A stretch of DNA of 64,000 nucleotides from Candidatus Baltobacteraceae bacterium (GTDB lineage: Bacteria > Vulcanimicrobiota > Vulcanimicrobiia > Vulcanimicrobiales > Vulcanimicrobiaceae): positions 124,001 through 188,000 of the forward strand of contig DASXGW010000004.1 of assembly GCA_036488875.1 (NCBI GenBank), given 5' to 3'. Made by a program: the position numbers and the translations under genes. Positions 53,703-54,737 of the stretch are shown here, in pieces (within the stretch, counting starts at the first letter, position 1; the number at the start of each line of letters is the position of its first letter). The notes under the pieces were generated by a model. It was not told the origin of the DNA. It ran no database searches and saw nothing but the letters and a program-made list of their open reading frames with translations.

Positions 53703-53843
53703 TTAGCGGGCAGCCAGGGTCGTACCCACGACGATGAGGCCGCCTGCGACGCTCAAGGCGAAGAAAACGATGAAGATCCAGACGCCCAGGCGTTTCCAGA
53801 AGTCGCGGCGGTTGCGCGACGCCCGCGTCTCAAGACGCGGCAT
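53703..53843 (-). CDS. 46-aa single-pass membrane microprotein
   Basis: A short frame that begins 14 bases inside the end of rsfS and ends in a CCCGC-TTA-GCGGG palindrome containing its stop codon. The product has a basic N-terminal stretch (PRLETRASRNRRDFWKRLG) and one hydrophobic helix ('VWIFIVFFALSVAGGLIVVG'), with positive charges predicting N-in topology. The amphipathic design and overlap with rsfS support real translation. No homologue is recognised. Confidence 0.6.
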   Translation of the reverse strand: MPRLETRASRNRRDFWKRLGVWIFIVFFALSVAGGLIVVGTTLAAR

Positions 53844-54159
53844 GGAGCGGCCCCCAGAGGCGTTCCAAATTGTAAAACGTGCGCTCCTCGGGCGTGAACA
53901 CGTGCGCGATGAGATTGCCGGCGTCGATGAGGATCCACGTGCCGTCGCTATAGCCCTCTACGCGCAACACGGCCGCATCGTTCTTTTTAAGCGCTTCCAC
54001 GATCGCGTCGGCGATGGCGCGGGTTTGTATCTTCGACCGTCCGGTGACGATGACGAACGCATCGGCCAAAATCGTGCGCGCGTGCACGTCCAAAACGGTG
54101 AAATCGATACCTTTTTTGTCGAGCGCAGCGTCGCGGACGACGTCGATTACATGGTCGAT
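53830..54159 (-). CDS. rsfS: ribosomal silencing factor RsfS, apparent AUC start
   Basis: A 109-aa RsfS/Iojap protein that binds uL14 and blocks subunit joining: 'KKGIDFTVLDVHARTILADAFVIVTGRSKIQTRAIADAIVEAL' and 'GYSDGTWILIDAGNLIAHVFTPEERTFYNLERLW'. No ATG, GTG or TTG is present in frame near the expected N-terminus. An ATC codon (54159-54157) lies seven bases after a perfect GAGGAGG (54173-54167) and gives the normal family length, so it is taken as the start. The first codons overlap the yqeK stop by 13 bases. Confidence 0.88.
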   Translation of the reverse strand: MDHVIDVVRDAALDKKGIDFTVLDVHARTILADAFVIVTGRSKIQTRAIADAIVEALKKNDAAVLRVEGYSDGTWILIDAGNLIAHVFTPEERTFYNLERLWGPLHAAS

Positions 54160-54737
54160 GCTCTTACCTCCTCGAGCGGAATGCCGAACGTGTGCGCGGC
54201 CGCGATGGTGGCGGGCGCGACGGCGAGTCCTTTGTGCGCCAAATGACGCACCGACGATTTGATGACCTCGCGCGTCGCTTCGGTCAAATCGTTCATCGCG
54301 AGCTCCCATAACGCGGCGCGTTCGGGAAAGTTGCGTTCCGGTTCCAAACCGTCGGCGAGAAAAACGACGCAATCCAACGGCGACATAGCCGCCGCCGCGG
54401 TGGTGTGTTTTTCGATCGCGGAGAGCACCTGCTCGTCGTGTACCCCGAAGGTTTCGGCGGCAATCGCGGCACCGAGCCGAGCGTGCAGCACGACCGGATT
54501 CGCTCGCTCGAAGCCGTCGATCGGCATGCCGCGCGCCTCACATTCGGTCAGCAGCCGCTGCGCCGGGTACAGGCGCGCGAGGTCGTGGAGCATGCCGGCC
54601 AGCCGAGCGCGCCGCGCGTCCAGACCGTGGCGCTGCGCGAGTATATCGGCACAGCGCGCGACGCGCACCGTGTGCTCGTACCGATGATCCTGCGCCAGGT
54701 GGTCGCGCACGCGCCGCGCGAGCTGCGTGAACGTCAA
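54147..54737 (-). CDS. yqeK: HD-domain diadenosine tetraphosphatase, YqeK type
   Basis: A 196-aa HD hydrolase: 'RYEHTVRVARCADILAQRHG' with His22, 'RARLAGMLHDLARLYP' with the HD pair, 'HARLGAAIAAETFGV' and 'IEKHTTAAAAMSPLDCVVFLADGLEPER' are the YqeK pattern. Bacterial YqeK splits Ap4A into two ADP. It sits between rimI (ATGA overlap) and rsfS, the common genomic position next to rsfS. Confidence 0.92.
   Translation of the reverse strand: MTFTQLARRVRDHLAQDHRYEHTVRVARCADILAQRHGLDARRARLAGMLHDLARLYPAQRLLTECEARGMPIDGFERANPVVLHARLGAAIAAETFGVHDEQVLSAIEKHTTAAAAMSPLDCVVFLADGLEPERNFPERAALWELAMNDLTEATREVIKSSVRHLAHKGLAVAPATIAAAHTFGIPLEEVRASTM

Follow-up and report, generated by a model that had tools for sequence, protein, structure and literature searches.

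A conserved near-cognate start codon predicted for the ribosome silencing factor gene rsfS in Candidatus Eremiobacterota

Results

Sequence comparisons indicate that rsfS, the gene for the ribosome silencing factor in the window (i.e., the whole stretch of 64,000 nucleotides analysed here), is almost certainly translated from an AUC codon, and that its orthologues in most relatives start from CUG. The gene (53830–54159, minus strand, 109 aa) closes at a TGA (53832–53830), and its product matched the whole PF02410 domain (residues 9–102, E=1.4e-30) and the TIGR00090 equivalog model (E=2e-31, score 108.1 against a cut-off of 56.9). Proteins of the RsfS family bind the 50S subunit and block subunit joining. 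At the predicted start, the minus strand reads ...CTCGAGGAGGTAAGAGC ATC GAC CAT GTA ATC GAC..., where the start codon (54157–54159, minus strand) is assigned from its Shine-Dalgarno (SD) spacing, from the onset of the coding signal, which is no more than 4 codons away from the ATC, and from the CTG, ATC or ATT aligned with it in 87/92 relatives. The sequence is as the original prediction described it, with a GAGGAGG motif seven bases before an in-frame ATC that yields 109 residues. This SD (54167–54173, reading 54173–54167 on the minus strand) lies within the end of yqeK, and the 7 nt between it and the ATC are TAAGAGC.

The same prediction had stated that rsfS has no canonical start codon (ATG, GTG, or TTG) nearby, and its frame has none in the 49 codons before the ATC or in the 21 after it. 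The first one downstream is a TTG at +22 codons, while the nearest one upstream is an ATG at −50 codons (54307–54309, minus strand), inside yqeK and judged not to be the rsfS start, beyond which the next is a TTG at 54372. The mRNA around the start folded no better than shuffled sequences (z=+0.78).

The upstream gene yqeK (54147–54737, minus strand) is read in a different frame and overlaps rsfS by its last 13 nt. The prediction had placed an out-of-frame ATG directly before TAA, the yqeK stop; these are indeed the last two codons of yqeK (TAA at 54147–54149, minus strand), but the ATG occupies 54152–54150 rather than 54153, a shift of one base. The start of yqeK has no SD and overlaps the stop of rimI within an NTGA (TTGA in the window, 54734–54737; relatives L001–L105), with TTG, GTG, or CTG as the start codon in most cleanly aligned loci. 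Because yqeK has CTG at this overlap in some relatives, CTG starts are apparently tolerated for other reasons too. At the opposite end of rsfS, a 46-aa open reading frame with one hydrophobic stretch (53703–53843, minus strand) starts at an ATG that overlaps the rsfS end.

Across the window's family, Candidatus Eremiobacterota (mostly uncultured bacteria, the relatives bearing names being Candidatus Eremiobacterota MAGs), rsfS was found in 92 of 99 genomes. Start positions were taken from a protein alignment; for 8 loci and the g9 group they were moved by hand by one to three codons, guided by SD and codon. The start codons were CTG (58 loci), ATC (28), ATT (1), GTG (2), ATG (2), and TTG (1). 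The comparison of related genomes that had been proposed as a check on the non-canonical start thus agreed with it, returning CTG, ATC, or ATT rather than ATG or GTG in 87/92 loci, although AUC is not the family rule, as CUG is commoner. An SD preceded 85 of the 87 non-canonical starts, mostly at a distance of 6–7 nt. The five canonical exceptions were L025 and L092 (GTG), L034 and L037 (ATG), and L096 (TTG), and the SD was missing in four of these five versus 2/87 non-canonical loci (Fisher p=2.6e-5). In the sister family f2, rsfS has ATG at the homologous position. In family f3 of the same class (L041–L050), RsfS is extended at its N-terminus, and the extension contains a conserved R.GIAST-like motif.

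The choice of codon at this position was narrow. Non-canonical rsfS starts that spell Leu were always CTG, while CTG made up 23% of the Leu codons inside rsfS, and the conserved Leu columns of the gene used four to six synonyms each, with CTG never above 43%. On a tree of YqeK and RsfS (94 rows), the start codon could be explained by just 7 changes: CTG appears to be the ancestral state and was held over deep branches, ATC was gained once or twice and then kept in the window's clade, and switches to a canonical start within the family numbered three or four. GTG and TTG, each one base away from CTG, were present in just 3/92 family loci. In a published survey, AUG-to-CUG switches amounted to 2 in 61,358 (PMC5622118). 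Judged from these patterns, the rsfS start codon is kept by selection; the sequences are related, hence we attach no exact probability to this statement.

As an internal control, we read the start of infC, with which the original prediction had drawn a parallel, at loci L110–L139 and L190–L216. The parallel extends to the window's own genome, where infC (L120, G000:C5:33683-34180) starts with ATA, as it does in all 38 family members read (the first 30, which include the window's genome, and eight further). The codon was ATC in f2 and ATT in f3, i.e., clade-specific and never canonical in the family, f2, or f3. In the first 30 genomes, the neighbouring genes rpmI and rplT started with GTG (29/30) and ATG (30/30), respectively, and the method therefore detects both non-canonical and canonical starts. 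By their codons, rsfS and infC share the class of start codons that IF3 rejects. In two loci from other classes of the phylum (L197 and L217), infC may start at a candidate ACG after a GGAGG-type SD.

To place rsfS in its genomic context, 464 kb (398 called genes) and then 1.66 Mb (1,489 called genes, ~45% of the genome) of the window's genome were scanned. In both, SDs were in excess before ATG, GTG, and TTG; no clear excess was found before CTG in these stretches, and the excess before ATC resembled that before the unrelated codons AGC, AAC, and GAC, on which grounds general use of CTG or ATC starts in this genome was rejected. Among the 1,489 genes, rsfS was the only one that combined an SD of at least 6 nt with ATC, ATT, ATA, ACG, or CTG at the coding onset and no canonical start nearby. 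Likewise, in 400 kb (352 genes) of G009, a genome with a CTG start, no case was better supported than the CTG of rsfS. Two further scan candidates, priA and rimM, were dropped because their start codons vary among relatives. One ordinary fMet initiator tRNA (CAU) was found; a special initiator tRNA was rejected, as the loci and stretches read held no fMet-like gene with another anticodon, and three tRNA pattern matches fell in protein-coding sequence and were not tRNAs. Separately, a ymdB-like phosphoesterase gene (G000:C1:45371, L388) has no in-frame ATG, GTG, or TTG for 85 codons upstream. In relatives (L389–L409) this gene has ATA, CTG, or CTA overlapping the upstream stop, and in f2 (L403, L404, L406, and L407) an SD-led ATC, so that it is possibly another case of a non-canonical start.

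Outside the phylum, rsfS starts with UUG in E. coli (PMC10917681), and TTG was read in 28/35 mostly Bacillota loci, which were picked by similarity and are mutually related, and which thus represent a lead rather than a survey. In two loci (L292, a Desulforudis MAG, and L294, a Bacillota MAG; near 2501), rsfS probably starts at an ATT after a 6–7 nt SD, and in L292 no in-frame ATG, GTG, or TTG occurs between the preceding stop and this ATT.

Discussion

The rsfS start site, its conservation, the near-exclusive use of near-cognate codons, the SD, and the AUA of infC are all obtained from sequence. As to mechanism, we lean slightly towards one in which IF3 acts as the discriminator at a weak AUC or CUG start and sets the level of RsfS by a rule that is shared with infC. 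The ordinary initiator tRNA would pair imperfectly with the AUC or CUG of rsfS, and the strong SD would make initiation at such a weak codon possible. Selection would keep the start weak and thereby the level of RsfS, a subunit anti-association factor, low, and IF3, which rejects codons of the AUC/CUG type, would in doing so set that level. As infC with its AUA would obey the same rule, both IF3 and RsfS should rise when IF3 activity falls. By analogy with known systems, an AUC or CUG start behind a strong SD should give rsfS a low and IF3-dependent yield. Weak initiation of rsfS in vivo, the role of IF3 as discriminator, and a function of the link in subunit anti-association are our inferences. 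Counting against this explanation, rsfS of f2 starts with ATG despite the ATC start of infC there, and CTG starts occur for other reasons too, as yqeK shows in some relatives.

Two other explanations concern the start site itself. RsfS might begin within yqeK, at the in-frame ATG or TTG upstream, and carry an N-terminal extension of at least 50 residues, for which the window leaves room, as its frame is open with the ATG at −50 and the TTG further up; but coding signal sets in at the ATC and the strong SD would be idle, and we regard such a start as very unlikely. In the relatives, 49 of the 87 non-canonical loci have no in-frame ATG, GTG, or TTG from the preceding stop to the start, and in 25 of these 49 the frame is closed by a stop no more than 12 codons before the start, leaving no canonical codon in between and excluding an N-terminal extension in those loci; an extended RsfS is thus refuted in relatives by closed frames upstream. 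The chance that a sequencing or assembly error turned an ATG into the ATC, a reading that draws on nothing beyond the rarity of AUC starts, is negligible, and we rejected it because 28 independent family genomes, including named MAGs of several projects, carry ATC at this position.

The remaining explanations accept the start site and differ on what it does. If rsfS were translated mainly by ribosomes coming from yqeK, its start codon would matter little and could have drifted among near-cognates, which would suit both the overlap of the rsfS start with the yqeK end in the window and the habit of yqeK itself to use TTG, GTG, or CTG starts within NTGA overlaps. Such coupling appears improbable to us, as drift predicts other Leu codons, TTG, GTG, and ATG, whereas the rsfS start column is limited to CTG and ATH, and as a conserved SD stands at 6–7 nt spacing before rsfS. 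The main rival, which we consider rather unlikely, is that the weak start sets merely a constant low dose of RsfS, such that any weak site would do and the IF3 level would carry no information for rsfS. That the canonical exceptions mostly lack an SD (4/5 vs 2/87) looks as if total initiation strength were balanced, and this fits a constant low dose as well as it fits IF3 sensing; a constant dose would also accommodate the ATG of f2 rsfS despite an ATC infC, and the UUG start of rsfS in E. coli and in most of the Bacillota loci read, a codon that is weak but outside the rejected class. It sits less well with the retention of CTG and AUC within the family, where GTG or TTG was nearly never taken (3/92), and with the presence of the same codon class in infC.

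Building on the proposed discrimination by IF3, we tentatively suggest, at somewhat less than even confidence, a small IF3-sensing translational regulon, in which the two anti-association factors, IF3 for the 30S and RsfS for the 50S subunit, would be co-controlled through start codons that IF3 rejects, with IF3 activity being read to set the pool of separated subunits. The rsfS starts of other phyla, with UUG in E. coli and in the majority of the Bacillota loci read and a candidate AUU in two more, would then be milder or independent versions. To our knowledge, few bacterial genes are known to use IF3-rejected starts, and few have been shown to retain such a codon across a whole family. A literature search of incomplete coverage found no published report of a non-canonical rsfS start. 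The conserved CUG, AUC, or AUU start points to a deliberate restriction of RsfS output, maybe in connection with IF3. As a ribosome-silencing factor with an IF3-rejected start, in genomes whose infC has one too, rsfS would allow a direct test of whether initiation fidelity and ribosome silencing are linked. On the practical side, gene finders restricted to ATG, GTG, and TTG would either overextend rsfS or overlook it in Candidatus Eremiobacterota.

Several known systems resemble the one proposed here. The closest is infC, which uses an IF3-rejected start for autoregulation (PMC5472188), with AUU in E. coli, ATC in Streptomyces, and AUA in S. aureus. Like infC, rsfS has a conserved, SD-led, near-cognate start of the IF3-rejected class and a product that acts on subunit association; unlike rsfS, for which the case is built on genomic comparison, infC has its autoregulation proven in E. 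coli, and RsfS is not itself the discriminating factor. The sigR gene of Streptomyces, which has a GTC start and is repressed by IF3 (PMC5472188), is likewise a gene other than infC with a conserved non-canonical start, one that keeps its product low; it encodes a sigma factor and comes with experimental proof, whereas rsfS encodes a ribosome factor and its CUG, AUC, or AUU is known from sequence. In S. aureus, the conserved AUA and AUU starts of ccpN and cvfC1, with their strong, extended SDs, yield, in poor medium, ~10% of the expression obtained with AUG (PMC13009471), and the combination of a conserved non-canonical start with a strong SD recurs in rsfS, although the genes and the phylum differ and the ~10% was measured for ccpN and cvfC1. 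For E. coli pcnB, the work of Binns and Masters 2002, as cited in PMC13009471, has an AUU start limiting expression; this resembles the proposal for rsfS, in which an inefficient start limits expression, in a different gene and lineage. Finally, the rsfS genes of E. coli and of most of the Bacillota loci read are orthologues with a weak start too, but their UUG is an ordinary alternative start outside the IF3-rejected class to which the CUG, AUC, and AUU of Candidatus Eremiobacterota belong.
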